Assembly: GCF_005239135.1 (NCBI RefSeq)
Contig: NZ_QKNX01000004.1
Location: 62,001-126,000 of the forward strand
Direction of reading: 5' to 3'
DNA: 64,000 bases
Origin: Natronomonas salsuginis
GTDB lineage: Archaea > Halobacteriota > Halobacteria > Halobacteriales > Haloarculaceae
A program made the translations under genes and the position numbers. Positions 2,753 to 46,908 of the stretch are shown here, one piece after another. The notes under the pieces are model-generated. The model did no database searches, had not been told where the DNA came from, and saw nothing but the letters and a program-made list of their open reading frames with translations. The stretch's first letter is position 1; every line of letters starts with the position of its first letter.

Positions 2753-2919
2753 TCGACCGCTGCCGGTCGGGATCGGCGTACGACCCCTCGACCGGTGAGT
2801 GCTCCCTTTGCTCGTCCTCTTAGCTGTTGGAATCGTCGAACTGGACGAATATGTACTCCGACGGTCTTCAGATATCGAAGACACAACCCTTATCGCTCAA
2901 CCGTCAGTAAAGCCTCCGA

Positions 2920-3837
2920 ATGAAGGTCTCCGTCGTCATCTGTACGTATTCATCGGAGATGTATGAGCACTTTGCGGACTGTCTGGAGAGCATCCGCGGG
3001 CAAACGTACGATGACATCGAGACGATAGTCATCGTCGACGGGAACGATGATCTCTACGAGCGTGTCGATTCTGAGTACGGTGACGACCCGGATCTGAAGC
3101 TCCACTGTAATGAACGAAACCTCGGACTGTCCGGGAGCCGCAACGAGGCACTCGAGTACGTCACCGGTGACATGGTCGCGCTCATCGATGACGATGCGGT
3201 CGCCGACGACCGGTGGATCGAGGAACTTGTTTCGGTTTACGAACGTCGCGACGCCATCGCTGCCGGTGGAAAGATGACGCCGATCTGGGTCGCCGGAAAA
3301 CCGGATTTCCTGCCCGAAGAGTTCTATTGGCTCGTCGGCGTCACCCACCGGGGATTCGCCGACCCCGGCGAGGAGGTCCGAAACACCTTCGGTTCGAATA
3401 TCTCCTTCAAAACGGATGTACTTCGTACCCTCGGCGGGTTCGCCACGGAGGTTGGGCGGCAGGGCGAAAAGAACCTGCAGGCCCACGAAACGGAATTTTG
3501 TGCTCGGATGCGGGAGGAGTACGGTCGCGGTGTCGTGTATAACCCGGACGCGACGGTCGGACACAAGGTCTTCGAGTGGCGAACCGACAAACGATGGCTC
3601 CTCGAACGGGCGTTCTGGCAGGGATATTCGAAACGGGCCATGGAGACGCTGGTCTCCGAAGCGTCGAGCGCCGAGGAGTCCGATTTCCTGAAGCGACTGG
3701 TGTTCGAGTTCGTCCCGTCTCGCATCCGGTCGCTCGTCACCGGCCCAACAGTAACCGAGGCCAAACAGCTTCTCGCGCTATTCGTGCTCACTGGGACGGT
3801 CGGGCTTGGATACGTGTACGGTCTCTTGAAGTGGTGA
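2920..3837 (+). CDS. GT2 family glycosyltransferase (AglG/AglE-like)
   Basis: A 305-residue GT-A fold glycosyltransferase. MKVSVVICTY opens the nucleotide-binding Rossmann-like domain, and IDDDAVADDRW at about residues 89-99 holds the metal-binding acidic motif. A C-terminal hydrophobic stretch (LLALFVLTGTVGLGYVYG) suggests attachment to the cytoplasmic face of the membrane. Haloarchaeal proteins of this type add hexoses or hexuronic acids to dolichol-phosphate glycans in the S-layer N-glycosylation pathway; AglG of Haloferax, as I recall its N-terminus, looks similar. It opens the glycan island that ends at the S-layer gene, which supports that role. The donor sugar is unknown. Confidence 0.85.
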   Translation: MKVSVVICTYSSEMYEHFADCLESIRGQTYDDIETIVIVDGNDDLYERVDSEYGDDPDLKLHCNERNLGLSGSRNEALEYVTGDMVALIDDDAVADDRWIEELVSVYERRDAIAAGGKMTPIWVAGKPDFLPEEFYWLVGVTHRGFADPGEEVRNTFGSNISFKTDVLRTLGGFATEVGRQGEKNLQAHETEFCARMREEYGRGVVYNPDATVGHKVFEWRTDKRWLLERAFWQGYSKRAMETLVSEASSAEESDFLKRLVFEFVPSRIRSLVTGPTVTEAKQLLALFVLTGTVGLGYVYGLLKW

Positions 3838-3914
3838 ACACCGACTCGTGCTCAGTTTTTCTGCTCTATCGACAAGCGATGGGCTAAAATTCCCCTGTCT
3901 CGACAGATCAATAT

Positions 3915-5189
3915 ATGAGTTCCCACACGCCTCGCGTCGGCGTCGTCGGATTGGGATACGTCGGTCTCCCACTGGCGCTCGCGATGCACCACGCGGGCCA
4001 CGACGTGATCGGGGTCGATGTCGACCGCGAGACCGTCGAACACCTCAACGACGGTCGGACACGCGTCAGTGACGTTTCTAACTCGGACGTCGAAGACGCC
4101 CTCGCTGAGGGTATCGAATTCACCACCGATTATGCGGCGTTGGGTGCCGTCGACGGTGTGTCGATCTGTGTTCCGACACCGCTTCGGAAAACTGATACGC
4201 CCGATCTCTCCTTCGTGCTCGACGCGGCCGAACAGCTCGCGCCGGTCGTCCCGGAAGGGGCGACCATCGTCCTCGAAAGCACCGTCTATCCCGGTGCGAC
4301 TGAGGAGGTCGTTGGCGAGGCACTCGCGGAAAACGGAGCTACCATCGGCGAAGACATTTACCTCGCGTTCTCCCCCGAACGTATCGATCCCGGAAACGAG
4401 GAGTACGGCCCGACGGATATCCCGAAGGTGTTAGGCGGGGTCACTCCCGCGTGTGGTGATCACGCTGAGGCGCTTTACGAACCGGTCTTCGACGAGGTCG
4501 TCCGCGTCAACTCGGCGACCGAGGCCGAACTGGTCAAACTGCTGGAGAACACGTTCCGAGCGGTCAACATCGGTCTGATCAACGAACTCGCGCAAGTTGC
4601 GCACGAACTCGACGTCAATATCTGGAGTGCGATCGACGCCGCGAAAACGAAGCCGTTCGGTTTCATGCCGTTTTATCCCGGCCCGGGGCTTGGCGGTCAC
4701 TGCATTCCGATCGACCCGTTCTATCTCTCCTGGAAGGCCAACGAGCAGGGGATCGATACACGCTTTATTCACCTCGCCGACGCCGTCAACCGCGAGATGC
4801 CGAGGCACGTTGTCCAGCGGGTCGTCGAACGATTGAACGACAGGGGAGTTGCGCTGTCGACCGCAGATGTACTCGTCGTCGGTGCGGCATACAAGCCCGA
4901 CGTCTCCGACACGAGGGAGTCTCCGGCGATCGACATAATTCAACAACTCGAAGAGTGGAACGCGGCTGTAGCGTACCACGATCCACACGTTCCGGAGCTC
5001 GATATCCTCGGAGAGCTCTACGATTCTGTACCTTTGACGATTGAACGTCTCGAAACGAGCGATTGCGTCGTCATCGTCACTGACCATTCCGACATCAACG
5101 TCGACCGCCTCGTCGAACACGCGCCGTTGGTGTTCGACACGCGAAACGCAACCGGTGATTTCGTTGCGGAGAACGTCGTCCGTCTGTAA
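3915..5189 (+). CDS. Nucleotide-sugar dehydrogenase (UDP-glucose/UDP-ManNAc type)
   Basis: A 424-residue enzyme of the UDP-sugar 6-dehydrogenase family. The NAD site GLGYVG is at residues 12-17, the central domain contains the LLENTFRAVNIGLINE region, and the catalytic cysteine lies in GGHCIPIDP (Cys263). The C-terminal UDP-binding domain contains YKPDVSDTRESP. The enzyme oxidises C6 of a UDP-hexose twice to give a UDP-uronic acid, a donor for glycans like that of the Haloferax S-layer (AglM). The overall pattern is closer to the WecC/UDP-ManNAc dehydrogenase subfamily than to short UDP-glucose dehydrogenases, so the substrate is left open. It follows the GT2 gene on the same strand after 77 nt. 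Confidence 0.9.
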   Translation: MSSHTPRVGVVGLGYVGLPLALAMHHAGHDVIGVDVDRETVEHLNDGRTRVSDVSNSDVEDALAEGIEFTTDYAALGAVDGVSICVPTPLRKTDTPDLSFVLDAAEQLAPVVPEGATIVLESTVYPGATEEVVGEALAENGATIGEDIYLAFSPERIDPGNEEYGPTDIPKVLGGVTPACGDHAEALYEPVFDEVVRVNSATEAELVKLLENTFRAVNIGLINELAQVAHELDVNIWSAIDAAKTKPFGFMPFYPGPGLGGHCIPIDPFYLSWKANEQGIDTRFIHLADAVNREMPRHVVQRVVERLNDRGVALSTADVLVVGAAYKPDVSDTRESPAIDIIQQLEEWNAAVAYHDPHVPELDILGELYDSVPLTIERLETSDCVVIVTDHSDINVDRLVEHAPLVFDTRNATGDFVAENVVRL

Positions 5190-5270
5190 ATTACGTCCCT
5201 TCCGCGCCTCGATCGACCTTCGTTGTCCAGAAGACGATACACTCAACCAATAGCCCTTCTGAGATCCGGT

Positions 5271-6194
5271 ATGCCGACGGCGCTTGTAACAGGTGTTGCG
5301 GGATTTATCGGTTCAAATCTCGCGGACGAACTTCTGGACCGTGGTTATACCGTTCGAGGAATTGACAACCTCGTGACTGGACGGGAATCAAATCTCGAGG
5401 CGATCGCGGATGAACTCAGCTTTCACCAGGGTGACATTCGAGACGCCGAACTGATGGCTGATCTCACCTCCGGTGTAGATTACGTCTTCCATCAGGCAGC
5501 AGTACCATCCGTCCCTCGGAGCGTTGATGACCCTGTAACGTCGACCGATGCCAACTGTACTGGCACGGCAACTGTCCTCGATGCGGCCCGGCGTGCTGAC
5601 GTTGAGTGTGTCGTTGTCGCCTCTTCGTCGTCAGTCTACGGTTCGAGCCAGAAGTTGCCGAAGGTCGAGACGATGCCCGAGAATCCCGAATCACCGTACG
5701 CGCTCTCGAAGTATTTCACCGAAAAACTCGCCCTGCAGTGCAGCGATCTCTACGATATCGACACGGTCGCCCTACGCTACTTCAACATCTTCGGTCCGAG
5801 ACAGGATCCGGCGGGGGATTACGCCGCGGTGATCCCGAAATTCATCGATCTCATGCTTCGGGGCGAACGTCCGGTGATATACGGCGATGGCGAACAGTCG
5901 CGCGATTTCACCTATATCGACAACGCCGTCGAAGCGAATATTCTGGCGGCCGAGCGTGACGTGACCGGAGAAGCGTTCAACGTCGGCTGTGACGACCGCT
6001 TCACGATCAACGAACTCGTTCACCGACTTAACGAACTGTTGGGCACAAATCTGGACCCGATCTACGATGAGCCACGGCCCGGTGACGTACGACACTCACA
6101 CGCTGACATCTCGAAGGCTGCGGAACTGTTGGGGTATGAGCCCGTGGTTGATTTTGATGAAGGATTGACCCACACACTAACATATTACGAGTGA
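5271..6194 (+). CDS. Extended SDR NAD-dependent sugar epimerase/dehydratase
   Basis: A 307-residue extended short-chain dehydrogenase. The NAD motif GVAGFIG is at residues 8-14, the serine-rich active-site strand SSSSVYG at about 118-124, and the catalytic YALSK at 143-147. The segment LRYFNIFGPRQDP is typical of UDP-glucose/UDP-GlcNAc 4-epimerases and UDP-glucuronate-modifying enzymes. The ATG at 5271 is preferred over an earlier TTG at 5223 because the protein then begins directly at the Rossmann strand (MPTALVTG). It is the third + strand gene of the glycan island and would make a modified UDP-sugar donor, possibly acting after the dehydrogenase. Confidence 0.9.
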   Translation: MPTALVTGVAGFIGSNLADELLDRGYTVRGIDNLVTGRESNLEAIADELSFHQGDIRDAELMADLTSGVDYVFHQAAVPSVPRSVDDPVTSTDANCTGTATVLDAARRADVECVVVASSSSVYGSSQKLPKVETMPENPESPYALSKYFTEKLALQCSDLYDIDTVALRYFNIFGPRQDPAGDYAAVIPKFIDLMLRGERPVIYGDGEQSRDFTYIDNAVEANILAAERDVTGEAFNVGCDDRFTINELVHRLNELLGTNLDPIYDEPRPGDVRHSHADISKAAELLGYEPVVDFDEGLTHTLTYYE

Positions 6195-6285
6195 CTCCCG
6201 GACCAATTCGCATCGTAATTCAAGTGTTCTACAATACATAATAAAAGAGCGGGTGAATTTTGTATATGTTTGATAATCGCCTTGT

Positions 6286-7440
6286 TCATCGTCGATCAGG
6301 CTTCGCTCCGGCCGAAAATACGTCTGATTGCTGTTTCCAGTGTTCTCCGATTTCCCGAACAGAACCAAACCACGCTCCTTCTTCTTTTAAATATTCAAGA
6401 ACACGAGTGTAAAGTGATCGCCACTCTCGATTCGAGATCGAGGAAGGGTGCCATAGGAGGGTGAGAACACCGCCAACCGATTTGACCTCAGCCGCTATCT
6501 GCTTGACATACTCGAATGCGGTCTCAACATCTAGACGAAGTCCCTTCGATTGATTCAACAATGCGTTATCCTGAATGACGAGCGGTATCTCGATGAGTGG
6601 CAGTGATTCTTCGGCTTCGAGGTCGTACAGTTGCCACGGATACGACGTTCCGAATCGGAACCCGACGTTGTCATTGAAACCGAGCGTAGAATCATATTGG
6701 AATCCCGCATCGGCGTGTGCTCGTGGTGTCTGCCCGATATCGTAATGAAGGAAGTGCTGACGTACGCTCTTGACTTCGTGATCGAGAACCGACTCGAGAC
6801 GAGACTTTTGCCGTTCGAGTTCTTTCGGATCGTCGTATGATGGCCACGTGGGATGGAGCCCAATCTCCCAGCCACGGTCATCAATCTCTCTTATCATTTC
6901 CCCTACCGTCATCGTCTCTTGGTCGAAGACGACTGTATCGGAAAAGCTGTAGTGTGTGTCTGTATGGTGGCGTGCTGTCCGCTCGTCGGCGATAAAAAAG
7001 AACGTCGACGTTCCCTTAACTGATGATTCGATGTTTAGCCATCGTTCGTACTGATGGAGAGGGTCCGATCCCAGTTGGAGTGACTTGATCGTGTCGTAGC
7101 CGAGCCGGAGAAAACTTTCAGATACTTTTTGAACATACGCGTCAAGAGAAAGTTGCTCTCGACAGCGTGCGGTGTTTACTAGCCGGCGGTACGTCTGCCG
7201 GATCGAGTGCTCGGTAACAGTATCCACGTCATGAGTGAGACAGACTGCGAACGAAGCGTCTCCCGGCCAAGTTGGGCTTTCCCGTTCGGGATCAAGAACT
7301 GGTCTATATAGTGTTTCCGAACGATTGAATGGCGAATAACCGAAATCTGGAACTTTGCTGTCTAAATCGATATCGTCCAGCATCGTGGCCTCCCTTTCGC
7401 CTCGGAGAATGTCTTCGGAAGAGTACGCCCGATCTCTCAT
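6286..7440 (-). CDS. Polysaccharide deacetylase-like protein
   Basis: About 384 residues. LTHDVDTV matches the metal-binding aspartate motif of the polysaccharide deacetylase (NodB, CE4) superfamily, and later pieces EIGLHPTWPSY, VRQHFLHYD and LLWHPSS fit the other metal or catalytic segments of the archaeal/bacterial long subfamily. It probably removes acyl groups from a glycan or sugar intermediate. The start is uncertain. The frame extends to a TTG at 7521. The ATG at 7440 has GAGG 4 nt upstream. The ATG at 7383 has a strong GGGAGG 5 nt upstream and removes about 19 poorly conserved-looking residues. It is divergent from the ATP-grasp gene across a palindrome-bearing gap. Confidence 0.75.
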   Translation of the reverse strand: MRDRAYSSEDILRGEREATMLDDIDLDSKVPDFGYSPFNRSETLYRPVLDPERESPTWPGDASFAVCLTHDVDTVTEHSIRQTYRRLVNTARCREQLSLDAYVQKVSESFLRLGYDTIKSLQLGSDPLHQYERWLNIESSVKGTSTFFFIADERTARHHTDTHYSFSDTVVFDQETMTVGEMIREIDDRGWEIGLHPTWPSYDDPKELERQKSRLESVLDHEVKSVRQHFLHYDIGQTPRAHADAGFQYDSTLGFNDNVGFRFGTSYPWQLYDLEAEESLPLIEIPLVIQDNALLNQSKGLRLDVETAFEYVKQIAAEVKSVGGVLTLLWHPSSISNREWRSLYTRVLEYLKEEGAWFGSVREIGEHWKQQSDVFSAGAKPDRR

Positions 7441-7587
7441 CGTTCCTCGTATTTGAATTACTGCACACGAAACAGTATCGGTTGTTAACGCGCTTCGTAT
7501 GCCGGTTAGTAGTCCCCTCAATCAACCCTGTGAACTGTTCTTTATTCTGTATAATCCATCCTCACCGATGTAACGATAGTCACAATT

Positions 7588-7605
7588 TAACAGTCGCGAC
7601 TGTTA
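7588..7605. promoter_or_regulatory. 18-bp perfect palindrome in a divergent intergenic region
   Basis: The sequence TAACAGTCGCGACTGTTA is identical to its reverse complement. It ends 11 nt before the ATG of the ATP-grasp gene and lies in the 176-bp gap shared with the divergent deacetylase gene. It could be an operator for a dimeric regulator, or form a hairpin in the ATP-grasp leader. A TATA-like TTTATTCTGTATAATCC lies about 35-50 nt upstream of it on the + strand, which places the palindrome near or after the expected transcription start. Confidence 0.6.
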
Positions 7606-7616
7606 TTCAGAATTAT

Positions 7617-8786
7617 ATGTGCCTCTCGGTATTGGTTACAAACGCTCAATCGAAGCAGACTCTCGCCATTGTTCGAGGCCTTTCGAATTTCGGCTACGAC
7701 ATTATCACCGTTGGCGCCCATCCTCGTTCTCAATCATTTTACTCTAAACACTGTCTTGCAGGGATACAGGTAGCTGACTCCGAAACGAACCCCCGACGAT
7801 TCACGGCCGACGTGAACAAAGCGGTTCAAGATTACAATATCGACGTTGTATTGCCCGTGTCGTCGTCTGATACGATGGCTATCGCGCGGTACAGAGAGGA
7901 GTTTGGTGACCGTGTGCAGATTCCGATCGCAGATTACGAGATTTTAGTCGCAGCCTTTGACAAAGAATTGACCTTTGACCATGCACGTGAGCAGGACATC
8001 CCAATTCCGGAGACGTACTGTCCGACCGATCGAGCGGAGCTTGAGGACCTTGCCGACGATCTCTCGTACCCCGTAGTCGTCAAACTTCGCCAGACGTCTG
8101 CATCGGAAGGGCTACGGTACGCACATTCACGGGACGAACTGCTTTCAGTTTATGAGCTTGATGGTCCCGATGGTGTGTCAACGGAATACGAGCGACCACT
8201 CGTTCAAGAGTATATCGAAGGTGACATCCACGATGTCTGTGTTCTCTTTCAGGACGGCGAACTGAAGCGAGCTCTGACCCAGAAGCGACTTCGTATGTAT
8301 CCCGCATCGGGTGGAGGTGGCGTGGTGAATGTCACTACTGACCGTCCTGAACTAATTGAGCTAGCTGAGGATCTTCTCTCTACGCTTGACTATCACGGTG
8401 TAGCGCAGGTTGAGTTTATGATCGAGGAGGGAACTGGTGATCCGTATCTCATCGAAGTTAATCCGAAGCTCTGGGGAACGTCGGGACTGTCGATCGCAGC
8501 CGGCGTGAACTTCCCAAAATATCTGGTCGAGGTGTCGCAGGGTAAGACGCTTGAGCGGAATCTCTCGGATTACGAAGTTGGTCTAACGTATGTCTGGCTC
8601 AGTCCTGGATTATTGGGCAACGTAGAACAGTCGGACGGTGTAGTAGAGGCACTAATTGATATACGGCGAGTACACGCCTCGAACGGACAGACGGACCTCG
8701 ACTTTTCCGACCCGATTCCTCATCTCGTTCGGATGCCACAGATCGCTTGGATCGTTTTTCGGTCGCTCTTTTCACGTCTATCGTAG
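7617..8786 (+). CDS. ATP-grasp carboxylate-amine ligase-like protein
   Basis: A 389-residue ATP-grasp protein. It has an N-terminal Rossmann-like region (LSVLVTNAQSKQTLAIVRGL), the ATP-binding lysine strand PVVVKLRQTSASEGL, a PLVQEYIEGD hinge strand and the Mg-binding acidic motif QVEFMIE...YLIEVNPKLWGTSG. The family makes acyl-phosphate intermediates and joins carboxylates to amines; PylC, CarB and D-alanine ligases are relatives. The C-terminus PHLVRMPQIAWIVFRSLF is hydrophobic and could touch the membrane. The ATG at 7617 is chosen because the preceding in-frame residues come from the promoter region. Inside a glycan island it may attach an amino acid to a hexuronic acid, but that is inference. 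Confidence 0.75.
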   Translation: MCLSVLVTNAQSKQTLAIVRGLSNFGYDIITVGAHPRSQSFYSKHCLAGIQVADSETNPRRFTADVNKAVQDYNIDVVLPVSSSDTMAIARYREEFGDRVQIPIADYEILVAAFDKELTFDHAREQDIPIPETYCPTDRAELEDLADDLSYPVVVKLRQTSASEGLRYAHSRDELLSVYELDGPDGVSTEYERPLVQEYIEGDIHDVCVLFQDGELKRALTQKRLRMYPASGGGGVVNVTTDRPELIELAEDLLSTLDYHGVAQVEFMIEEGTGDPYLIEVNPKLWGTSGLSIAAGVNFPKYLVEVSQGKTLERNLSDYEVGLTYVWLSPGLLGNVEQSDGVVEALIDIRRVHASNGQTDLDFSDPIPHLVRMPQIAWIVFRSLFSRLS

Positions 8787-8961
8787 GATCGTGGTAAAAT
8801 ATCTTCCCGCAATTGGGGTTTGACGGTTTGGTACACTGTTCTGTGGGATTTCAGCATTCTAAATAATCGGAACGTTGGTAACGCCCGCGTTGAAACCCGA
8901 CTGATAGAGCAATGATCAGCGGGTTCAGAGTGCCGGACGCTACAGCGGATCGTATAAAACA

Positions 8962-9999
8962 ATGAGTACAGGCCGTGAGTCGATTCGAGTCCTCTGGCTG
9001 CGTCCCACCGTCGGAACGCACATCAGCACCCGTCGAGAGCGTATCAAAGAGGGATTGACAGACCGCGGTGTGACCGTTGATATCGTCGATACGAGCGGTA
9101 CGGAAGCCATCGGTGCGATCAAACAGGCGTTTTCCGAAGAGTACGATCTCATCGCGGGGACCGTCCGCGTGGGCGTATATTACGGGTACTTACTCGCCCG
9201 GGTGAAGGGGGTGCCGTTCGTGGCCGAAGTCACCGAACCGATCGAACGCGTCCGGGAGGATCTGCCGTGGCCGGTTTTCCGCTTTTTCAAGTGGTACGAA
9301 TGGAACGTACTCGAACGCGCGGATGCGCGCTTCTTCGTCGAGGAGGACGTCCTCGAACGGGTTCGCCGCCGCGGGATGGACGGTCACCTCGCAAGGAACT
9401 CCGTGTGGTACGAAAAATTCGCCGATCCGGATCCGACTGTCGTCACGTCTGCTCGGGATCACCTTGAGGCGATAGGGGTAGATTTCGACTCGCCGGTGGC
9501 GATATACCTCGGTGGATTCACCCGACAACAACATATCCCGGAGATACTCGACGCGATACCGAAGTGTCCCGAATGGGACTTCCTGTTCCTCGGTGAAGAT
9601 GGTCAACACGCCGGTGCCGTCGAGGAGGCCGCAGAAACGCACGAAAATGCGTATTTCGGTGGAGTCGTTCCACACGACGAGGTCCCCGGCTATCTGTCCG
9701 TTGGGGATGTCGGATTCTCGCTGTCTTTGGGCGAGCGTCCGCTTAAGTTGCTCGAGTACGGGGCCGCAGGACTAACCGTGCTCGGAATTCCCGGCCGTCG
9801 GCAACGCATTTTTTCGGATGATCAGGTCCACTTTATCGAGCCGACTCCGGATCGGATTGCCGAAACTCTCGAGAAGATCCGTCTTGATCCCGAGGCCGTT
9901 CCGGCTACCGGAAGTGCGCTGCAAACGTACGCGAAACATAATTCGTGGGACGATATCGCTCAATTGTATTACGATGTCTTTTGTGAATCAATCGACTGA
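8962..9999 (+). CDS. Group 1 / GT4-like glycosyltransferase
   Basis: A 345-residue GT-B type glycosyltransferase. It begins IRVLWLRPTVGTHISTRRERI, a typical N-terminal strand plus glycine loop, and has a C-terminal donor domain with AIYLGGFTRQQHIPEIL, FLFLGEDG, YFGGVVPHDEVPGYLSVGDVGFS and PLKLLEYGAAGLTVLG. The last contains the conserved glutamate of GT4 enzymes that contacts the donor sugar. It would transfer a sugar from a nucleotide-sugar to the lipid-linked glycan. It lies downstream of the ATP-grasp gene on the same strand after a 175-bp gap with nothing recognisable. The donor is unknown. Confidence 0.8.
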   Translation: MSTGRESIRVLWLRPTVGTHISTRRERIKEGLTDRGVTVDIVDTSGTEAIGAIKQAFSEEYDLIAGTVRVGVYYGYLLARVKGVPFVAEVTEPIERVREDLPWPVFRFFKWYEWNVLERADARFFVEEDVLERVRRRGMDGHLARNSVWYEKFADPDPTVVTSARDHLEAIGVDFDSPVAIYLGGFTRQQHIPEILDAIPKCPEWDFLFLGEDGQHAGAVEEAAETHENAYFGGVVPHDEVPGYLSVGDVGFSLSLGERPLKLLEYGAAGLTVLGIPGRRQRIFSDDQVHFIEPTPDRIAETLEKIRLDPEAVPATGSALQTYAKHNSWDDIAQLYYDVFCESID

Positions 10000-10077
10000 A
10001 TGATTTATAAAATTCTTTATATACGAGCTATTGCTGAGAGACCGTAGCATCTAACGTGAATTAGGTGGATCTTCTCT

Positions 10078-10240
10078 ATGGATAAATTCCAACATGAGTA
10101 CTGGAGTTCTGCCGGATAGATTCGCTGGCTTGAGGAGCTTCAGTACCCATAATGTTGGTCTGGATCAGTACCCAAGCTTAGTTATCACCGAGAATACCAG
10201 TGGTGTCCTACTAGTGATTGTTTTGCACGCTTCCATAATT
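10078..10240 (+). pseudogene. Possible relic of a transposase N-terminus (zinc ribbon)
   Basis: The gap between the GT4 gene and the acetyltransferase is AT-rich. From the ATG at 10078 one frame reads MDKFQHEYWSSAG, stop, IRWLEELQYP, stop, then CWSGSVPKLSYHREYQWC and CFARF. This resembles the start of IS1595-like transposases (WLEELxYP plus a CxxC zinc ribbon), interrupted by two stops. The match is by eye only. A different frame gives an open stretch starting MSTGVLPDRF that runs into the antisense of the acetyltransferase; I do not consider that a gene. Confidence 0.25.
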
Positions 10241-10293
10241 TATACTCAATATATTTTCAAAAACGATGTTTTCAACAGAAAATGTATAATAAG

Positions 10294-10980
10294 CTATTCA
10301 ATTAATGAATATATGTCGGATGTCTCACGAAGATCACTTTCAAAAAATTCGATATTTTTCTTTTGTCTCTCCTCATCCCAATCCCACCAAGCAATCTCTT
10401 GGAGGGCCTCCCTTGTGGACTCATCAAACCTGTAGCCTTTGTGAGTCGCAGGATTTCCAGCCACGATGGAATACGGCTTAACATCGTCTACTACAACTGA
10501 ATCCGCTGCAATTACGGCTCCATTTTCGATGGTAACATCCGACAAAATTTTTGTATCTGAGCCGATCCAGACATCATTCTCAATTTTAATTGGACCTTTT
10601 GAAATATGTGGTAACTCTGAGCCTATCTTATTATAAAATCCCATCGACATACTTGGTTTGTACGTTGGGTGGTCTAGGGTTCTCATCCGTGCACGTGCAG
10701 CAATAGGACAGTATTTGCCAATACTTACTTCACCTATTATCGAATTATTTCCCATTAATCCAGTATGATCTCCTATATTTACATCCCCCATAATTTTAAC
10801 ATCTTTTTTGATTGAGACATTTTTCCCAATCTCGATATTGCCATAAAGCTCTGACCCCCGCCCAAGAGTGGCCGACTCACTTATGTTAATCGAGCTGTCT
10901 GAGAATTTATTTATAATTACGTTAAATAATTTTGGATGGCCAAAAAATTTAGAATAAAGTTTATATGCTCTCTCCTTCAT
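10294..10980 (-). CDS. Hexapeptide-repeat (LbH) O-acetyltransferase
   Basis: A 228-residue left-handed beta-helix acyltransferase. Many hexapeptide turns are visible: ATLGRGSELYGNIEIGKNVSI, DVNIGDHTGLMGNNSIIGEVSIG, IKIENDVWIGSDTKIL and VTIENGAVIAADSVVV. The C-terminal AGNPATHKGYRF and IAWWDWDEE segments match xenobiotic/virginiamycin-type and sugar O-acetyltransferases. The active-site histidine would be in ARARMRTLDHPT. It transfers an acetyl group from acetyl-CoA, here probably to a glycan sugar. The gene is very AT-rich with codons such as AAA, ATT and TTT, unlike nearly all other genes in the window, so it looks recently acquired. It stands alone on the minus strand inside the island. Confidence 0.85.
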   Translation of the reverse strand: MKERAYKLYSKFFGHPKLFNVIINKFSDSSINISESATLGRGSELYGNIEIGKNVSIKKDVKIMGDVNIGDHTGLMGNNSIIGEVSIGKYCPIAARARMRTLDHPTYKPSMSMGFYNKIGSELPHISKGPIKIENDVWIGSDTKILSDVTIENGAVIAADSVVVDDVKPYSIVAGNPATHKGYRFDESTREALQEIAWWDWDEERQKKNIEFFESDLRETSDIYSLIE

Positions 10981-11424
10981 ATACCATAGAACTATGCTGT
11001 ATTTAATAAATATTCTCGTCTATTACGTGGACATTGGATAGATCCATATGATCGTGGTTCTGAAGTTAATTAAATAGTTATTCTGATAAGGTCACACGAA
11101 TCAACCGTCCCTACTGAGCGTTCAGCTCTAGTGAACTACATCCTACCAGCGGGATGTATTGGCCGATATAACGAAATGAATCGATACTTCAGTCTGCTGG
11201 TTCGTCTATAACATCGGGCGCGACGTGGAACAGTATATCCTATCGCTCGTACCGTTCAATATCGCCAGTTAAACTGACTTTCACATTGAACAATTAACTC
11301 CGTAAATTTCATGTCCATGAGTGTTCAAAATCACCACCCCCACTACCTAAATTAATAAGTAAATGGATGGAGTATTCTGGTCTGCCGCTGTATTTCGATC
11401 ACAAACCACTACGATTATTTTAGT
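10981..11424. other. AT-rich intergenic region, no gene
   Basis: 444 bp with no plausible reading frame on either strand. It is AT-rich like the flanking acetyltransferase gene. It contains the tandem hairpins at 11120-11158 and, just before the flippase ATG, a weak TATA-like GATTATTTTAG. It may be debris from insertion and deletion. Confidence 0.5.
11120..11158. repeat. Two tandem hairpins, possible mobile element end
   Basis: GTTCA (11120-11124) pairs with TGAAC (11132-11136), and TACATCC (11137-11143) pairs with GGATGTA (11152-11158), with no gap between the two stems. Adjacent small imperfect hairpins in non-coding DNA are found at ends of IS200/IS605-type elements, common in haloarchaea. 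No tnpA or tnpB remains are visible, so this is only a possible relic. Confidence 0.25.
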
Positions 11425-12882
11425 ATGAATATCGGACAGACCTCAATAATCGTATATTTATCTCTGCTGTTCGCCTCTGCGCTCGGGTTTTTATCCACAC
11501 TATATTTTGCTCGAAAACTAGGGCCAGAAATAATTGGTATTTTCTCTTTGTTGATGGCTGTTATAACCTGGTTATCTCTAGCTAATGTGGGCCTTGGTGA
11601 GGCGATGAAAAAGAGAATTAGCGAGGGGAATGATCAAGGTGAATTTCTTTCTGCAACAATTTTATGCATCATTCCGATTGCAGTTATCGTCGCGATTCTT
11701 GCAGTAGCCTTCCAACCAACCTTACAAAATTATGTGGATGGATTTGACAAATATGTAAATATTTCAATCGTTTGGTTCGTTATGGGAGTCTTTTTGATTC
11801 GTACGTTTTTCCAATCAGTATTCAGGACTTTGACCTCTCAACGAATGGTCCACATTCGCGGGCTACTCGATCCGGTGAGTATTGGCGGCAAGAGCCTATT
11901 CCAGATCATTCTCGTCGCCGGTGGATACGGTCTCTTGGGAATGCTCGTCGGGTGGATGCTGGGCGGACTCCTCGTCGGCGTGATCGGGCTGTACTGGGTG
12001 CGAATCCGTCCCGCGCGACCCAGCAAACGCCACTTCAAAAGCCTGTTCGAGTATGCCAAATTCTCCTGGCTGACCGGCCTGAAATCGCGCGCGTTCAATC
12101 AGGTCGATATCCTCCTTCTCGGTGCCTTCGTCTCCTCGTCGCTCGTCGGCGTGTACGCCGTCGCGTGGTCGATCGCGAAGTTCCTCGAACTGTTCGGGAA
12201 CTCGATCGGTCAAACGATGTTTCCGGAGATCAGTCACACGTCGGCGCAAGACTCCACCGAAGCTGCGGCCGGATTACTCGAGGATTCACTGGCGTTCAAC
12301 GGACTCATCGCCATCCCCGGTCTGATCGGCGGTCTCGTTCTCGCCGAGCGTCTCATGCGCCTGTACGGGCCCGATTTCACGCGGGGCGGGGCTGTACTCG
12401 CACTCCTCATCCTCGCGACGCTCGTGTACTCCTATCAGAACCAGCTCCTCAACACGCTGAATGCGATCGACCGCCCGGATATCGCCTTCCGGATCAACGT
12501 CGTGTTTATCGCCCTCAACGCCGTGCTGAACGTCGTACTCATCTCGCAGTACGGCATCGAGGGTGCCGCGGCCGCGACCGTAATCTCGGCGGCTGTCGGC
12601 CTCGGTCTTTCCTACTATGCGTTGGACAGCCTGATCGATTTCGAAACGCCGGTCCGCGAACCCACTCGTCAGATCGCCGCCGCGCTCCTCATGGGCGGCG
12701 TCATCTGGGTCGCGCTCGAATCGATCGAAACCACCGGGCTGATAACGCACAACGCGATCATCGTCGTCAGTCTCGTCACGAGCGGCGCTGGGGTGTACTT
12801 TCTCACTTTGCTCGGTATCTCGCCACAGTTCAGAGCGACCGTCAATCGGAACCTCCCTTTTGAGGTCCCGTTCTTAGGGTAA
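11425..12882 (+). CDS. Polysaccharide/lipid-linked oligosaccharide flippase (MATE-like, AglR/Wzx type)
   Basis: A 485-residue protein with about 12-14 hydrophobic helices, starting MNIGQTSIIVYLSLLFASALGFLSTLYFARKLGPEIIGIFSL, the standard opening of the polysaccharide biosynthesis (Wzx/RfbX) flippase family. It would move lipid-linked glycans across the membrane for transfer to S-layer protein. It is the last glycan gene before the S-layer gene. The first ~430 nt use AT-rich codons (ATA, TTA, AAA, AAT) while the rest, from about 11,850, use normal GC-rich haloarchaeal codons. The gene looks like a chimera made by recombination, but the reading frame is intact. Confidence 0.9.
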   Translation: MNIGQTSIIVYLSLLFASALGFLSTLYFARKLGPEIIGIFSLLMAVITWLSLANVGLGEAMKKRISEGNDQGEFLSATILCIIPIAVIVAILAVAFQPTLQNYVDGFDKYVNISIVWFVMGVFLIRTFFQSVFRTLTSQRMVHIRGLLDPVSIGGKSLFQIILVAGGYGLLGMLVGWMLGGLLVGVIGLYWVRIRPARPSKRHFKSLFEYAKFSWLTGLKSRAFNQVDILLLGAFVSSSLVGVYAVAWSIAKFLELFGNSIGQTMFPEISHTSAQDSTEAAAGLLEDSLAFNGLIAIPGLIGGLVLAERLMRLYGPDFTRGGAVLALLILATLVYSYQNQLLNTLNAIDRPDIAFRINVVFIALNAVLNVVLISQYGIEGAAAATVISAAVGLGLSYYALDSLIDFETPVREPTRQIAAALLMGGVIWVALESIETTGLITHNAIIVVSLVTSGAGVYFLTLLGISPQFRATVNRNLPFEVPFLG

Positions 12883-12894
12883 CGAATCGGGATC

Positions 12895-12912
12895 CCGCTC
12901 GACCCCGAGCGG
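12895..12912 (+). terminator. Hairpin just downstream of the flippase gene
   Basis: CCGCTCG (12895-12901) and CGAGCGG (12906-12912) form a 7-bp perfect stem with an ACCC loop, 13 nt after the flippase stop. No T-tract follows. Archaeal termination usually depends on T-runs rather than hairpins, so it may be a 3' end processing or stability element. Confidence 0.35.
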
Positions 12913-13029
12913 AGGAGCGTTCTGTGGCCTTTGACTCCGAACACACGCGCGAAGATGGACGAATACCGCCGGCGATCGCTGAGGTGCGTGAATAAGCGTT
13001 TTCATACGTCGATTTCTCTCTCGACTTCG

Positions 13030-13037
13030 TTTATATA
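13030..13037 (+). promoter_or_regulatory. Upstream TATA-like element of the S-layer gene
   Basis: TTTATATA occurs about 240 nt before the S-layer ATG in a gap with no gene (12883-13271). It would give a longer alternative transcript than the proximal box at 13143. Two promoters have been described for some haloarchaeal S-layer genes, which makes this plausible. Confidence 0.35.
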
Positions 13038-13142
13038 CTCATACGTCCGACGTTCGCACGACGCCAAAACCACGAAACGGCCTCTCCCCGCTGATATCGC
13101 GCCCGACAAGCGTTATCACACCCCGCCCTGCCCCACAAAGCA

Positions 13143-13150
13143 TTTATACT
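13143..13150 (+). promoter_or_regulatory. Probable main TATA box of the S-layer gene
   Basis: TTTATACT lies 122 nt upstream of the chosen ATG. A start about 25 nt downstream would leave a leader of roughly 95-105 nt. Haloarchaeal S-layer (csg) mRNAs are known for an unusually long leader of that size, in contrast to the leaderless transcripts common in these organisms. Confidence 0.55.
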
Positions 13151-13202
13151 GAGCGATAGAGTTTGAAATCGTACCCCTACCCATGGTGGCAGTGCGGAGT
13201 AT

Positions 13203-13230: not shown

Positions 13231-13271
13231 TACGCGACGTGCGGCCGCCGATTGCGACAACGAAACACAAC

Positions 13272-15590
13272 ATGACACGAAACAATAACGACAAGCTGCG
13301 TGCGGTAGTCCTCGCGGCGCTGATGGTCCTGTGGGTCTTCGCAGGCTCCGTCGCGCTCGCGGGCAGTGCTGCAGCGGCTGATGCAACAACCAACACAGCT
13401 CAAATCGACGGTGATGAGTTCTATCAAGGCCAAGAAGTGAATATCTCTACGGGCCTTGGTTCAGGCACTAGCATCCAAGTCCGAGAGGTAACAGGACGTG
13501 ACAGTGGCGGCAACGCGACCACGTCGGCAACTCGCGTCACCAACGAGGTTGACGCTAACGGCAACCTTACTATCGACTCTGCAAACTTGCCAGAAGGCCA
13601 GTTTGTGCTCCAAAGAGTTGATACTAACGAGTTCTTGGATACTGCTAACACTTGGCAGACCACAAGCCTCCGGGACATGGATCCCCGTGCCGCAGAATTC
13701 TCTGTTGTCGTTCAAACACTAGCTGTCGAGTTTGACGACGGCGACGGCGGAAGTGAAGTTCGCGCTGGGGAATCCATCGAACTTGACTTTAGCTCACCGG
13801 AGCGTGCTAGTGGATACAACGTTAATGTCACTGCTGATGGCGATATCAGCACGAGTGAACTGAACAGTACGTTCTACGACCTCGTCGGTGAGGAAGTCGA
13901 AGACATTAGTGAACACCCGGATGACGACACGATCACTCTCGAGGGTGTCAACAGCTCGTTCACACACGATGTCACATTCGACTCCGACATCGACCCCGAT
14001 GACTACGAAATTGAGTTCTCGGTTACGGACACGACCGCTGAAGCCACCGCAGATGTGACGGTGCTTGAAAAGATCGAAGCAGACGCATCCTTCGACGAAC
14101 CGCAGTTCGTAGAGAACCGCGGTGACGTCGCATCGATCAATGCGACCGTCGATGGTGGCGTTGATCAGGTTGACATCGTTATCGGTGACTTCGACGATGT
14201 CGGCTACGAGATGAACCTCACCGTCGAACCGAATGGCGACGGCGAGATCGCTCTGCTGTTCAATACATACGAAGCCGGTCAGGGCCCCGATACGACCCCC
14301 GATAACGCTGCAAACAACGTCATTGAGGCTCGTGACGACTACGGAAACGTCGTCGACACTCATGAGAAAACTAGTGGCGACCAATCTCTTGGTACTGTCC
14401 TTGAGGCAGGTCTCTACGATATTAGCATCCGTGAGAACACGTACGATACAGGCGATGGATCGGTTGATGCCAATGCCGAAGAGTACGATGTCTCTACGCT
14501 GGATCTGACCGAACGGTCCACCGATGGCATCACGCTCTGGCGTGCACCGAACGGAGCTAGTATTAGCGACGTTGATGATGTTCAGGCAGGTATCGAAGCA
14601 GGAAACATCACGCAGACTAATTCAGTCGCTATCCAAGACTCCGATCGCGGTAGCACCGCAGATATCATCGTTCACCAGATTGAAGTCTCTGGTGTCTACG
14701 GTCAAGGTACGAGCGCCGCCGCCCTGCTCAACAACACGGGCAATCTGACGCTCGAATATGAAGAGACCGATGCATCTGCAAACCGCGCGCCACTGATGCT
14801 CAATATGAGCAACTCTCACGCGACGGCTGAGGGTGACTTCGGTGTTATCGTCGACGAAGAGAACAACATGATTTTCGCGGCCATCCCGGCCAACCTAATC
14901 GAAGTCTCGCGTGGAAACGGTGCTGCGGAACGACTCCCGACTGGGAACGACTTCGAGGTCCGGTACAACGTCACCGCTAACTACCTGAACAACTTCGATA
15001 GTGATGGTGACCTCGGGAGTCCGGATGACGACGAAGTCGTCTCCGACAGCTTCTCGACGGTCGACCGCGAACTCACATTCGACACGGCAGAGGATGGCAA
15101 CGTGACCGTTCCGCCGACCGCTGATGCGGAAGTCACGGGTACGACTACGATCGCTCCTGGTACGGAGATCACCGTCCGCACCCGTGCGACCGGTGACAAC
15201 GCGTTCCTCCGCACCAGCGACACGGAAGTCGACGCTGACGGCATGTTCAATGCTGCTGGCTTCGACTTCAGCGACATCCCGGCTGGCACGGAGTTCACCG
15301 CGAGCGTCCGACAGCAAGGCTTCGAGAACAACGCCGAAACGGACGGCATAGTCAGCGAAGACGCTGGCGCGCCGGAACCGACGCCGGAACCGACGCCGGA
15401 ACCGACGCCGGAACCGACGCCGGAACCGACGCCGGAACCGACGCCGGAACCGACGCCCGAGCCGACTGACGAACCCGAACCCGAACCGACCGAAGCGCCT
15501 GAGGATCAGGCCGGATTCGGAGCCGTCATCGCGCTCATCGCGCTCATCGGCGCTGCGCTGCTGGCAGCCCGACGGAACGCGTTCAACTAA
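13272..15590 (+). CDS. csg: S-layer (major cell surface) glycoprotein
   Basis: A 772-residue precursor. Residues 1-35 (MTRNNNDKLRAVVLAALMVL then WVFAGSVALAGSAAA) match the conserved haloarchaeal surface-glycoprotein signal peptide, with cleavage expected near residue 35. The mature chain is very acidic and has about 14 N-x-S/T sequons, such as NIS, NAT, NST, NSS, NNT and NMS. A PEPT repeat spacer of eight units, normally O-glycosylated, precedes QAGFGAVIALIALIGAALLAARR, the C-terminal membrane segment and basic tail of PGF-CTERM proteins. The motif here is AGF, not PGF. The protein forms the S-layer lattice. The neighbouring glycan genes probably build its N-glycan. An ATG in a longer frame at 13239 is rejected because the signal peptide family starts at MTRNNND. 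Confidence 0.93.
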   Translation: MTRNNNDKLRAVVLAALMVLWVFAGSVALAGSAAAADATTNTAQIDGDEFYQGQEVNISTGLGSGTSIQVREVTGRDSGGNATTSATRVTNEVDANGNLTIDSANLPEGQFVLQRVDTNEFLDTANTWQTTSLRDMDPRAAEFSVVVQTLAVEFDDGDGGSEVRAGESIELDFSSPERASGYNVNVTADGDISTSELNSTFYDLVGEEVEDISEHPDDDTITLEGVNSSFTHDVTFDSDIDPDDYEIEFSVTDTTAEATADVTVLEKIEADASFDEPQFVENRGDVASINATVDGGVDQVDIVIGDFDDVGYEMNLTVEPNGDGEIALLFNTYEAGQGPDTTPDNAANNVIEARDDYGNVVDTHEKTSGDQSLGTVLEAGLYDISIRENTYDTGDGSVDANAEEYDVSTLDLTERSTDGITLWRAPNGASISDVDDVQAGIEAGNITQTNSVAIQDSDRGSTADIIVHQIEVSGVYGQGTSAAALLNNTGNLTLEYEETDASANRAPLMLNMSNSHATAEGDFGVIVDEENNMIFAAIPANLIEVSRGNGAAERLPTGNDFEVRYNVTANYLNNFDSDGDLGSPDDDEVVSDSFSTVDRELTFDTAEDGNVTVPPTADAEVTGTTTIAPGTEITVRTRATGDNAFLRTSDTEVDADGMFNAAGFDFSDIPAGTEFTASVRQQGFENNAETDGIVSEDAGAPEPTPEPTPEPTPEPTPEPTPEPTPEPTPEPTDEPEPEPTEAPEDQAGFGAVIALIALIGAALLAARRNAFN
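15372..15467 (+). repeat. 12-bp tandem repeat encoding PEPT units
   Basis: Seven exact copies of CCGGAACCGACG run from 15372 to 15455, followed by a variant CCCGAGCCGACT to 15467. They encode eight PEPT units, the Thr/Pro/Glu-rich spacer that holds the S-layer lattice away from the membrane. Exact identity of the copies points to recent slippage expansion, so the copy number is likely to vary between strains. Confidence 0.95.
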
Positions 15591-17543: not shown

Positions 17544-18311
17544 TCACTCCCGGATGAGGTCCAATACACGCTCGTAGTGCGCCCCAAACTCGGGGTCGGA
17601 ACGAGAGCGTGGCCGCTCGAGGTCGACGTCGAGTACCTCTCGAATGTGTCCCGGCGACTTCGACAGCACGACGATACGGTCGGCGAGTTTGAGCGCCTCC
17701 TCGACGTCGTGAGTGACGAACAGCACCGTTTTCCCGGTTTCTGTCCAGATGTCGAGCAGTTCCCGTTGGAGCATCTCGCGGGTTTGGGCGTCAACGGCCC
17801 CGAATGGCTCGTCCATGAGCAACAGATCCGGATCGACCGCGAGCGCCCTCGCGATGGCGACGCGCTGTTTCATGCCGCCCGAGAGGTCCTTCGGATAGCT
17901 GTCGCCGAACCCGTCGAGGCCGACGAGGTCGACGAGCTCACCGACGCGGCGGCGACGTTCGGCGTCCCCATCGCTGTTTTCGAGGCCGAAGCCGACGTTA
18001 CCCCGGACCGTCCGCCACGGAAAGAGGTGGTACTCCTGGAAGACGACGCCCGTGTCCGGGGTCGGTCCGTCGACGCGGGTCCCGTTCAACAGGACGTCTC
18101 CCTCCGTCGCCGACTCCAGTCCGGCGATGATCCGAAAGAGCGTCGTTTTCCCACAGCCGGAGCTACCGACAATACAGACGAACTCGCCATCGGACACGTC
18201 GAAGCTGACGTCATCGAGCGCCTGCACCGGCCCCTCCGCGCCGTCGTAGCGCTTCTGAACGCCGTCGATGCTGACGCGCGCGCCGAACGCCCCGTCCGAA
18301 CGTCCGTTCAT
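17544..18311 (-). CDS. NitT/TauT-type ABC transporter ATP-binding protein
   Basis: A 255-residue ABC ATPase. Walker A is GSSGCGKTT, the Q-loop region is VVFQEYHLFPWRTV, the signature LSGGMKQR, Walker B LLLMDEP and the H-loop VTHDVEEAL. FPWRTV and the overall length are typical of SsuB/TauB/NrtD ATPases. It hydrolyses ATP to drive import by the partner permease and lipoprotein. The ATG at 18311 overlaps the permease stop by 4 nt (ATGA). The frame is open far upstream only as an antisense-like extension through the permease gene, which is rejected. It is the last gene of the SBP-permease-ATPase operon. Confidence 0.93.
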   Translation of the reverse strand: MNGRSDGAFGARVSIDGVQKRYDGAEGPVQALDDVSFDVSDGEFVCIVGSSGCGKTTLFRIIAGLESATEGDVLLNGTRVDGPTPDTGVVFQEYHLFPWRTVRGNVGFGLENSDGDAERRRRVGELVDLVGLDGFGDSYPKDLSGGMKQRVAIARALAVDPDLLLMDEPFGAVDAQTREMLQRELLDIWTETGKTVLFVTHDVEEALKLADRIVVLSKSPGHIREVLDVDLERPRSRSDPEFGAHYERVLDLIRE

Positions 18312-19111
18312 CGCCACGCGAGCACCCTCCGTTGAACCGTTCGGAATGCCACATCGACGACGAGGAACATGAGGCTCAACACGAGAATGTACGCGATGAC
18401 AACGTCGACCTGCAGGTTGTTTGAGGCGCGCAGTATTCGCCGACCGATCCCCGGGACCCCGAAGATCTCCGAGGCGACGACGAGCATCCAACAGCGCCCG
18501 ATCCCGGTTCGAACCCCCGTCAGGATCTCCGGCGACGCCGCGGGGACGACGACGGATCGAAGCAGGTTGACGTCGCGGTCGACGCCGAGACTCCGCGCCA
18601 CGTCGAGGAGGTCCTCCGAAACCCCCTCGACGCCACCGTACGCGGCGTAGAAGTTGATCCAGAACGCGCCGACAGCGATGATGAACGCCGCGCCGGCGTG
18701 GTTGATCCCGAACCACGCGATCGCGAAGCCAATAAGCGCCAGCGGCGGCACCGGGCGGAGGGTCCGAACGATCGGTGCCGACACGTCGTCGGCGATCGAA
18801 CTCCACGCCAGCACGACGCCAGCCGCGACGCCAAGCGCGGTGCCGATCGCCGCGCCAGGGACCCAGTGTCGGACGCTGTGGCCGATGGCAATCGCCATCT
18901 CGCCGCTCGCCGCCTCCGCGTAGAACGTCTCGCCGACGGCGATTGGCGATGGCAACACGAACTCCGGTTGAGAGAGCGACGCCGCCCACCACATGGCGAG
19001 GAAGCCAGCGATCCCGGCAGTACCCAACACCGCCCGGCGCGGATCGAACTCGAAGATCGAGCCGTTGACCCGGCCCTCGAACTCCCCGTCTACGCCCGTT
19101 TCGGTTGCCAT
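18308..19111 (-). CDS. NitT/TauT-type ABC transporter permease
   Basis: A 267-residue membrane protein with about six helices. The EAA-like coupling loop region is DVARSLGVDRDVNLLRSVVV followed by PAASPEILTGVRTGIG, characteristic of SsuC/TauC/NrtB permeases. It forms the channel for a small anion such as a sulfonate, nitrate, nitrile or thiamine-precursor-like substrate; the sequence does not say which. It lies between the lipoprotein gene (25 nt upstream) and the ATPase gene (4-nt overlap). Confidence 0.92.
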   Translation of the reverse strand: MATETGVDGEFEGRVNGSIFEFDPRRAVLGTAGIAGFLAMWWAASLSQPEFVLPSPIAVGETFYAEAASGEMAIAIGHSVRHWVPGAAIGTALGVAAGVVLAWSSIADDVSAPIVRTLRPVPPLALIGFAIAWFGINHAGAAFIIAVGAFWINFYAAYGGVEGVSEDLLDVARSLGVDRDVNLLRSVVVPAASPEILTGVRTGIGRCWMLVVASEIFGVPGIGRRILRASNNLQVDVVIAYILVLSLMFLVVDVAFRTVQRRVLAWR

Positions 19112-44713: not shown

Positions 44714-46594
44714 TCACGCCAAGAAGACGTGTCGCGGCCGGTCGGCGAGCACCTCGCGGCCGTACTGGACCGTCTCTCTGAACGCGTCCGACCGGAAGAA
44801 CGCCATCGCGTCCTCGCGGCGCTCCCACTGACTCGCGATGAACATGTCGTTCTCGTCGTCGAGGTTCGTCATGAGATCGGTTTCGAGATGGCCGTCCATC
44901 CCGGCGAGCAGCTCGCCGACCTCCTCGAACGTCTCGACGAAGTCCTCGCGGTACTCGGGCTGGACGGTGTAGAACATCCCCATCGTCCCAAACCCACCAC
45001 TCTCGTCCGCGCCCGCGCGGGCGACGACGCCGGGGAGCTCGGCGAGGAAGCCGCTCGCGGTGTCCGCGGCCTCCTTCGTCTCCCAAAGAGAGACGACCGC
45101 CGAGCGCTCGCCGCCGTGTTCGTTCGCGTACACCGCCGACTTGACGTGCGTGTCGTAGTGGCCGAACCGCTCGGCGAGCGGCGCGAGTTCCTCCCGCACC
45201 GTCTCGACGTCCGCCTCCGAGTACAACACCATCGCGTAGACGTCCTCGCCGTGCGGCTTGCCGGCGTAGATGTTCAGGTCGTCGAGCTCGCCCCGGATGT
45301 CGTCGTCCGCGTCGGTACCGTGCGAGCTCGCCGCCGCGCCGCGATCCGCTTCGCCATCGCCGTCGAGCGACGCACCGACGCCCGAACTCACACCCTGGAG
45401 GTCCGCGAGGAAGCCGCTCGCCGTGTTTGCCGCGCGCTCGTTTTTCCACAGCGAGATGACGGCCGTCGTTCCGGAGTCGGCCCGAACGGCGGTCAACACG
45501 TGCGTGTCGTAATGCTCGAAGTTCCCGCGAAGGCCCTCGACCGCCTCTGTCAGCGCCTCGGCATCCGCGTCGGCGGTGAAGAGCAGTCCGTAGCCCGCCT
45601 CCACGTGTTCGTCGAGGTCGATCCCGAACCGGCCGAGCCGCCCGGCGAGCGTCTCCGTGTCGACCTCCTCGTGGGCGGGGCTGGTGTCGGGTCGTCCGGA
45701 CGATCCGCCCCCGTGGCTCGTCTCATCGTCGTGGTGCTCCGCGTTGCCGTCGTGGTCCGCGTCCGCGCTGGCTCCGGATTCCGATCCACTCGCCGAGTCC
45801 GTCCCGTCCGTCGGCACCGCCTCGCCCGCCAGCAGCGCGGGGAGGTCCTCGGGTTGGAACTGTCGCCCGACGTAGAAGGGGCCGAACTCCGCGAACTTCG
45901 AGGATGAGGGGTCGAAGCGCATCTCGTAGAGGAGGTGTTTGATATCGGTCGCGTCGTTCGCGAACAGCGTCACGCCCCACTCGTAGTCGTCGAGGCCGAC
46001 GCTGCCGGTGATGATCTGGCTCACCTTGCCGGCGTACTGCCGGCCGATGTCGCCGTGGGCGGACATGTACTCGGCGCGTTTGTCGAAGGGGAGGTCGTAC
46101 CAGTTGTACTCCGGCTCGCGGCGCTTGTCCATCGGGTAGAAACAGACGTGCTTGGCGTCGGGGATCGTCGGGTAGATGCGCTGTTGCATGTAGTTTCGCA
46201 TCCCCGCGTCCTCGATGTCTTCGATCCCGTCGACGAGCTCCTCGTGCATGTACCCAGACACCTCTGTCACGGAGACGTACGAACTCGCCCGTTCGGTGAA
46301 CTCGGCGAAGGCCGTCGCCTCGAACCGTCGCTCCGCTCGATCGAGCGCTTCGAGCGTCGGCCGGAGGTGGAGGATCATGATATCCGCCTTGTGGCCGACG
46401 ATCGAGAAGACCGCCGAGCCGCCCTCCTCGGCCTCGGCGAGGTCGACGTGCGATCTGAGGTGCCCGATCCCCTCCTCGAGCGCCCGCTCGCGCTCGCGGT
46501 CGGGGGCCGCCCGCCAGGCGTCCCAGTCGATCCGTCGGAGGTCGTGCAACGCGTACCATCCTTCCTCGGTCCCCGGTGGCTTCCGTCGCTCCAT
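44714..46594 (-). CDS. hemQ: HemQ-type coproheme decarboxylase domain fused to ABM-like domains (PitA-like)
   Basis: 626 residues. Residues 1-250 form a chlorite dismutase/HemQ domain: EYNWYDLPFDKRAEYMSAHG, RQYAGKVSQIITGSVGLDDY and EWGVTLFANDATDIKHLLYE match Gram-positive HemQ closely, with the catalytic-type Tyr166 and the proximal haem His180. Residues 250-305 are an acidic, low-complexity linker. Then come two repeats with the core HYDTHV...SA...SLW...AA.TASGFLA.L.GV (about 330-400 and 440-520), and a C-terminal antibiotic-biosynthesis-monooxygenase-like domain (GMFYTVQPEYREDFVETFEE). Haloarchaeal Cld-ABM fusions (PitA) are known. The HemQ part decarboxylates Fe-coproporphyrin III to haem b by family inference. 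The extra repeat may bind haem or mediate oligomerisation. Confidence 0.88.
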   Translation of the reverse strand: MERRKPPGTEEGWYALHDLRRIDWDAWRAAPDRERERALEEGIGHLRSHVDLAEAEEGGSAVFSIVGHKADIMILHLRPTLEALDRAERRFEATAFAEFTERASSYVSVTEVSGYMHEELVDGIEDIEDAGMRNYMQQRIYPTIPDAKHVCFYPMDKRREPEYNWYDLPFDKRAEYMSAHGDIGRQYAGKVSQIITGSVGLDDYEWGVTLFANDATDIKHLLYEMRFDPSSSKFAEFGPFYVGRQFQPEDLPALLAGEAVPTDGTDSASGSESGASADADHDGNAEHHDDETSHGGGSSGRPDTSPAHEEVDTETLAGRLGRFGIDLDEHVEAGYGLLFTADADAEALTEAVEGLRGNFEHYDTHVLTAVRADSGTTAVISLWKNERAANTASGFLADLQGVSSGVGASLDGDGEADRGAAASSHGTDADDDIRGELDDLNIYAGKPHGEDVYAMVLYSEADVETVREELAPLAERFGHYDTHVKSAVYANEHGGERSAVVSLWETKEAADTASGFLAELPGVVARAGADESGGFGTMGMFYTVQPEYREDFVETFEEVGELLAGMDGHLETDLMTNLDDENDMFIASQWERREDAMAFFRSDAFRETVQYGREVLADRPRHVFLA

Positions 46595-46793: not shown

Positions 46794-46862
46794 CGAATCA
46801 GGAATACGCTAAATCGCCGCGAATTCGGTGAACGATCCTGAACCGACGCGAAGGCTCTGCGG

Positions 46863-46869: not shown

Positions 46870-46908
46870 GCAGGTCGCGGCGCATAGATGGAATCGAGGA
46901 GATCACCG

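Follow-up and report, generated by a model that had tools for sequence, protein, structure and literature searches.

A composition step inside an oligosaccharide flippase gene suggests recombination at the edge of a haloarchaeal N-glycosylation island

Introduction

Haloarchaeal genes for surface glycoproteins and their glycosylation have been described as sites of homologous recombination, including exchange within single genes. In Haloferax, within-gene recombination has been reported for SLG, aglD and aglB, mostly between members of the same clade, and aglB has been called laterally transferred (PMC5867893). The cell-wall island GI1 of Haloquadratum walsbyi is likewise S-layer-linked and diversified by homologous recombination, with events that reach the S-layer gene and pass beyond the island edges, a process that has been likened to capsular switching (PMC4535781). 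In the N-glycosylation pathway of Haloferax volcanii, AglR and Agl15 are predicted or implicated in the transfer of dolichol-phosphate-linked sugars across the membrane (PMC5867893).

The locus described here lies in a stretch of 64,000 nucleotides from Natronomonas salsuginis, referred to below as the window, which belongs to contig C4 (245,853 bases) of a 2.9 Mb genome assembled in 12 contigs and stated to be 99.94% complete and 0.35% contaminated. It contains a flippase gene whose composition changes sharply within an intact reading frame. The change is probably the mark of recombination between flippases of the same clade, in which an AT-rich segment of 1.9 kb was imported with its right crossover near codon 140.

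The flippase gene and the surrounding island

The open reading frame at 11425-12882 (+) is unbroken and encodes 485 amino acids. Its sequence and predicted structure identify it as an oligosaccharide flippase of the MOP superfamily (MurJ/Wzx-like), with a predicted role in the transport of lipid-linked glycans. The protein scores above the curated cutoffs of both PF01943 (62.6 bits, cutoff 28.2) and PF03023 (58.8 bits, cutoff 27.4), and its AlphaFold2 model (pLDDT 84, pTM 0.85) has a multi-helix MOP fold that continues unbroken across the composition junction. When this model was compared with the PDB by Foldseek, the best matches were MurJ (6nc6, E 6.5e-13, TM 0.72) and WzxE (9g9n).

Judged by the predicted functions of its neighbours, the gene lies at one edge of an N-glycosylation island that is linked to the S-layer (Table 1). 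The S-layer glycoprotein-like gene on its 3' side scores below the cutoff of the S-layer equivalog NF041335. Within the island, a 411-aa open reading frame at 6286-7521 (-) has no Pfam match, overlaps the start of the ATP-grasp gene (7329) and may be spurious. No RNA families were found near the junction, and a mobile-element check found no second copy of 10,980-11,430 elsewhere in the genome.

Table 1. Features of the flippase locus, in window coordinates
Feature	Position	Strand	Basis and remarks
AglG-type glucosyl-dolichyl phosphate glucuronosyltransferase	2920..3837	+	NF041394, 503.5 bits (above cutoff of 440)
Nucleotide-sugar dehydrogenase	3915..5189	+	TIGR03026, 429 bits, above cutoff
NAD-dependent sugar epimerase/dehydratase	5271..6194	+	PF01370
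ATP-grasp protein of the island	7329..8786	+	PF02655, PF15632
Glycosyltransferase (group 1/4 type)	8962..9999	+	PF13692; last ~60 bases hold the left edge of the AT-rich block
Hexapeptide-repeat O-acetyltransferase (CatB/Vat-like)	10294..10980	-	PF00132 and sub-threshold NCBIfam matches; divergent from the flippase
Flippase codons 1-140	11425..11844	+	AT-rich; GC1/2/3 0.44/0.36/0.37
Inferred crossover interval	11811..11866 (codons about 129-148)	within flippase	GC3/GC changepoints, model helices, junction alignment
Flippase codons 141-485 and stop	11845..12882	+	Genome-typical; GC1/2/3 0.61/0.42/0.78
S-layer glycoprotein-like gene, directly 3' of the flippase	13239..15590	+	halo_sig_pep, BGTF and PGF-CTERM above cutoffs

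The compositional step

Within the flippase gene, GC3 rises from 0.37 in codons 1-140 to 0.78 in codons 141-485, and GC1 and GC2 move as well. The best GC3 changepoint falls at 11845 (codon 140) with an LR of 72.4, whereas 1000 shuffles gave no value above 17.8, and an alternative at 11884 is nearly equal (LR 71.4). The original prediction had placed the switch at 11,850-11,890; the step is real and the alternative changepoint lies in that range, but the best estimate is slightly to its left. The second part agrees with the genome median GC3 of 0.79, as expected from the claim that the frame turns genome-typical.

The same boundary emerges from raw GC. A two-changepoint scan of 8800-13200 delimits a block at 9936-11845 with a GC of 0.387, flanked by DNA of 0.576 on the left and 0.594 on the right; the 2-unit support intervals of its edges are 9906-9966 and 11811-11866. 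This block holds the end of the glycosyltransferase gene, two intergenic stretches (GC 0.37 and 0.40), the whole acetyltransferase gene and flippase codons 1-140. The acetyltransferase, with GC1/2/3 of 0.44/0.36/0.36, matches the first part of the flippase at all three codon positions, so that the two belong to a single compositional block, which ends on the right inside the flippase gene. Both the likeness of the first ~430 nt to the acetyltransferase and the position of the block's right edge had been predicted, and both are borne out.

In the model, helices 115-138 and 142-189 leave codon 140 in a short predicted inter-helix loop. Directly after it comes VHIRGLLDPV, which is well conserved between relatives (motif VHIxGLLDPV) and would for this reason supply a homologous stretch for a crossover. 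The sequence at the step is conserved between alleles, which would also be expected of an assembly artefact in which two alleles or strains were joined. Such an error is highly improbable here, given the long contig, the small number of contigs and the stated completeness and contamination of the genome, together with a reading frame that is intact and conserved flippase residues that are retained on either side of the junction.

Rarity of the step

None of 51 full-length orthologs equals this LR: the runner-up, G425, reaches 39.8, and the majority stay below 15. The comparison within the genome itself, for which about 800 kb were sampled, took in 337 open reading frames with 300 codons or more; when no segment was allowed to be shorter than 60 codons, 13 of them exceed the LR of the flippase. 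In 7 of the 13, all Pfam domains begin after the step, which indicates that these frames have been extended too far at the N terminus, over the low-GC3 part. One other, L072:8952-9854, is a less clear case of this kind and has its sole domain in the right part, some way past the step, and another, L104:779-2107, has no Pfam domain. The gene for AglB is the only clearly real gene among the 13. Separately, two open reading frames in the window, at 17544-18992 and 44714-46906 (-), have GC3 steps with an LR of 62 each and may carry false N-terminal extensions, like many frames of this sort in other parts of the genome.

Similar steps in related loci

Steps of the same kind occur in related loci. 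The flippase of G425 passes from a GC3 of 0.45 to 0.82 at codon 75, on the boundary of an AT-rich cluster in that genome, and its identity to the flippases of G317 and G433 steps at residues 85-100. The latter two genomes provide an independent example of exchange within this gene, which was spotted post hoc, outside any planned test. Their loci (L181 and L179, the flippase and about 4 kb upstream of it) have outer flanks that are 94-96% identical and carry non-homologous DNA on either side of the flippase. Within the gene, DNA identity amounts to 74% in residues 1-140 and 91% in residues 141-420, synonymous third-position identity rises from 0.52 to 0.80, and the step is placed at residue 151 (permutation p<0.01). 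Five of seven further control pairs are without a significant step and another shows a codon step of marginal significance (p 0.04); in the control pair G189/G352 a step near residues 40-69 runs in the opposite direction. DNA-identity steps at gene positions 416-423 also separate the window flippase from those of G425, G317 and G433, and these are not counted as proof because the high GC3 shared in the second part inflates them. The middle of the flippase shared by G317 and G433 (residues 201-240) is 100% identical at the DNA level. An apparent truncation of the G102 flippase (L111, about 660 bases in) proved to be an assembly gap, a run of Ns.

More broadly, 51 flippase loci were compared for the GC of the DNA on the two sides of the gene: in 18 the 5' side is poorer than the 3' side by 0.05 or more, and in 4 it is richer (Wilcoxon p 0.0007). 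This asymmetry indicates that the flippase often stands between AT-rich DNA, which holds glycan genes where examined, and ordinary DNA. The AglB gene of the same genome (L099:5312-7741; G000:C3:45312-47741, -) is the edge gene of a second AT-rich glycosylation island, on contig C3, and at codon 643 its GC3 falls from 0.77 to 0.38. Comparable steps occur in the AglB homologs of G090 (codon 524) and G078 (codon 262), the AT-rich side always being the 3' one; some of these ORFs have a start or end that is a predicted one.

Phylogeny and divergence of the two parts

Maximum-likelihood trees of 42 sequences were built separately for residues 1-140 and 141-485. In both, the window protein is sister to that of G098, with support of 99/94 for the first part and 100/97 for the second, within one clade of 7 rows. 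The best matches are common to the two parts (G425, G317, G433 and G098, followed by G107, G195 and G166), and the flippases of its own genus (G131, G117, G120, G121) are more distant for either part. A protein model with free trees split at residue 140 was not favoured, with a dAIC of -4.0 with the window sequence and -5.2 without it, and a free-tree breakpoint scan of the proteins gave no peak at 140; the scan rises near 180-220 and 340-440, and these rises mostly persist when the window sequence is removed.

These results bear on the original prediction of an in-frame recombination between a foreign and a resident flippase, whose N- and C-terminal parts would place with different relatives. 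Recombination remains the best reading of the locus, but the two parts have the same sister and the same clade, and under the refuting condition set with the prediction, one phylogeny for both halves, its distant-donor form fails. Joining of two flippases from distinct phylogenetic lineages, one foreign and one resident, would explain the composition step, yet it is very unlikely in view of the common nearest relatives, the strong sister relationship of both parts to G098 and the greater distance of the own-genus proteins; a distant donor in particular is disfavoured by the agreement of the trees and of the top matches. Such a comparison of two trees can miss exchange between alleles of one clade, and the agreement leaves room for recombination of that kind.

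The two parts do differ in how far they have diverged. The window protein is 43-52% identical to its relatives over the N part and 61-68% over the C part, and its N part is too divergent for its C part, with a mean residual of -11.0 identity points that is the lowest of all (next, -6.0). The terminal branch leading to the window sequence measures 0.57 in the N tree and 0.22 in the C tree, compared with 0.37 and 0.43 for G098. Relative-rate contrasts between the N and C parts gave p values of 0.0025-0.022 over five outgroups with G098 as partner and weaker ones with other partners (0.009-0.27), while seven control trios without the window gave 0.2-1; these tests share data and their effects are modest. 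The excess of FYMINK over GARP residues in the N part relative to the C part is 0.171, the largest of 52 sequences (next, 0.111). This strongest relative AT bias in amino acids suggests that the N part probably evolved for a long time in an AT-rich background.

Divergence and amino-acid effects support, but do not prove, recombination, as AT drift alone could also yield them. Under such an account no recombination took place, and the 5' third drifted AT-rich in place through local mutation bias or relaxed selection beside the AT-rich intergenic region. Lower-GC 5' ends do recur in related flippases (7 of the 8 orthologs with an LR above 17), and the trees of the two parts agree. Drift is nevertheless improbable as the cause: a GC3 jump of 0.41 within some 20 codons, to a composition equal to that of a separate gene on the opposite strand, would be hard to reach in this way, most orthologs are without a step, and the G317/G433 pair steps in sequence identity, beyond composition.

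Donor and polarity of the exchange

Searches of family or order genomes (one per species), plasmids, phages and viral contigs turned up neither a donor nor a parental allele; the best relatives at the DNA level are only about 65-72% identical. Plasmids hold distant relatives only, and phages and viral contigs yielded no viral source for the flippase or the acetyltransferase. The nearest relative of the acetyltransferase (G257, 59%) is a GC-rich gene that does not adjoin a flippase of the window type. A divergent CatB/Vat-like acetyltransferase upstream of a homologous flippase also occurs in G156, G386 and G326 (L222, L223 and L224), which marks the two genes as recurrent neighbours across families.

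Because the second part of the flippase matches the genome median GC3, the AT-rich part was probably the incoming one. The same recombination with opposite polarity would make the AT-rich flippase and acetyltransferase the older state and the GC-rich 3' part the later arrival, either alone or together with DNA downstream of it. Several features fit that order: the remaining island is also GC-poor (0.52-0.58 over 2796-9933), the downstream S-layer-like gene has a GC3 of 0.63, below the genome average, and the flippases of G098 and G107 have low GC3 throughout (0.5-0.6), the sister gene of G098 being near 0.55 along its length and without a step (LR 10.9). Against it stand the genome-typical composition of codons 141-485 and the short terminal branch of the window sequence in the C tree, which makes the AT-rich piece the odd one out. 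The reversed order is accordingly regarded as unlikely.

Discussion

Import of the AT-rich segment into a resident flippase gene of the same clade is the reading that we infer for this locus. Codons 1-140 and the upstream acetyltransferase would have entered together, as a segment of 1.9 kb, by homologous recombination from a low-GC lineage whose flippase belonged to this clade. The right crossover would have fallen near codon 140, in the conserved VHIxGLLDPV stretch just past the short loop between two transmembrane helices, a position that would keep both reading frame and fold. The flippase may thereby act as an anchor gene, one side of which faces variable, often AT-rich glycan genes, and the sequence shared within it would let blocks be swapped and so alter the surface glycan.

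The recurrence of steps in flippase and AglB genes hints at recurrent crossover sites, which adds modest value to the single case. It is a tentative possibility that island edge genes such as the MOP flippase and AglB serve generally as recombination anchors, with flippase crossovers often at residues 85-150, near the loop and VHIxGLLDPV, and that they allow glycan cassettes to be swapped, possibly between genera, while the gene for the transport or transfer step stays in frame. If so, exchange of islands could be mapped from the composition steps that AglB and flippase genes contain, a matter that touches both virus resistance and mating compatibility of haloarchaea. The window flippase is in any case a candidate, at the level of single bases, for where surface-glycan islands of these organisms recombine.

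The locus resembles described systems to different degrees. With MurJ and WzxE, which are MOP flippases for lipid-linked oligosaccharides, the window protein has its fold in common, but it is only 15-18% identical to them, is archaeal and would be expected to use a dolichol carrier. AglR and Agl15 have a predicted or implicated role like that proposed for the window protein, whose putative function is read from family and neighbourhood. Recombination inside haloarchaeal genes of this sort has been published before, and, on the recombination reading, the window is a new instance, here in a flippase gene. As in Haloferax, glycosylation or surface genes of haloarchaea are concerned and homologous recombination would act inside genes (PMC5867893); there, however, events were detected with RDP among close strains, whereas the present case is read from composition, in a MOP flippase beside an S-layer gene and without a close strain or donor. 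In GI1 of Haloquadratum walsbyi, exchange takes place within one species and in events of about 250 bp to 25 kb (PMC4535781), whereas the window has a block of 1.9 kb with a putative crossover in the flippase.
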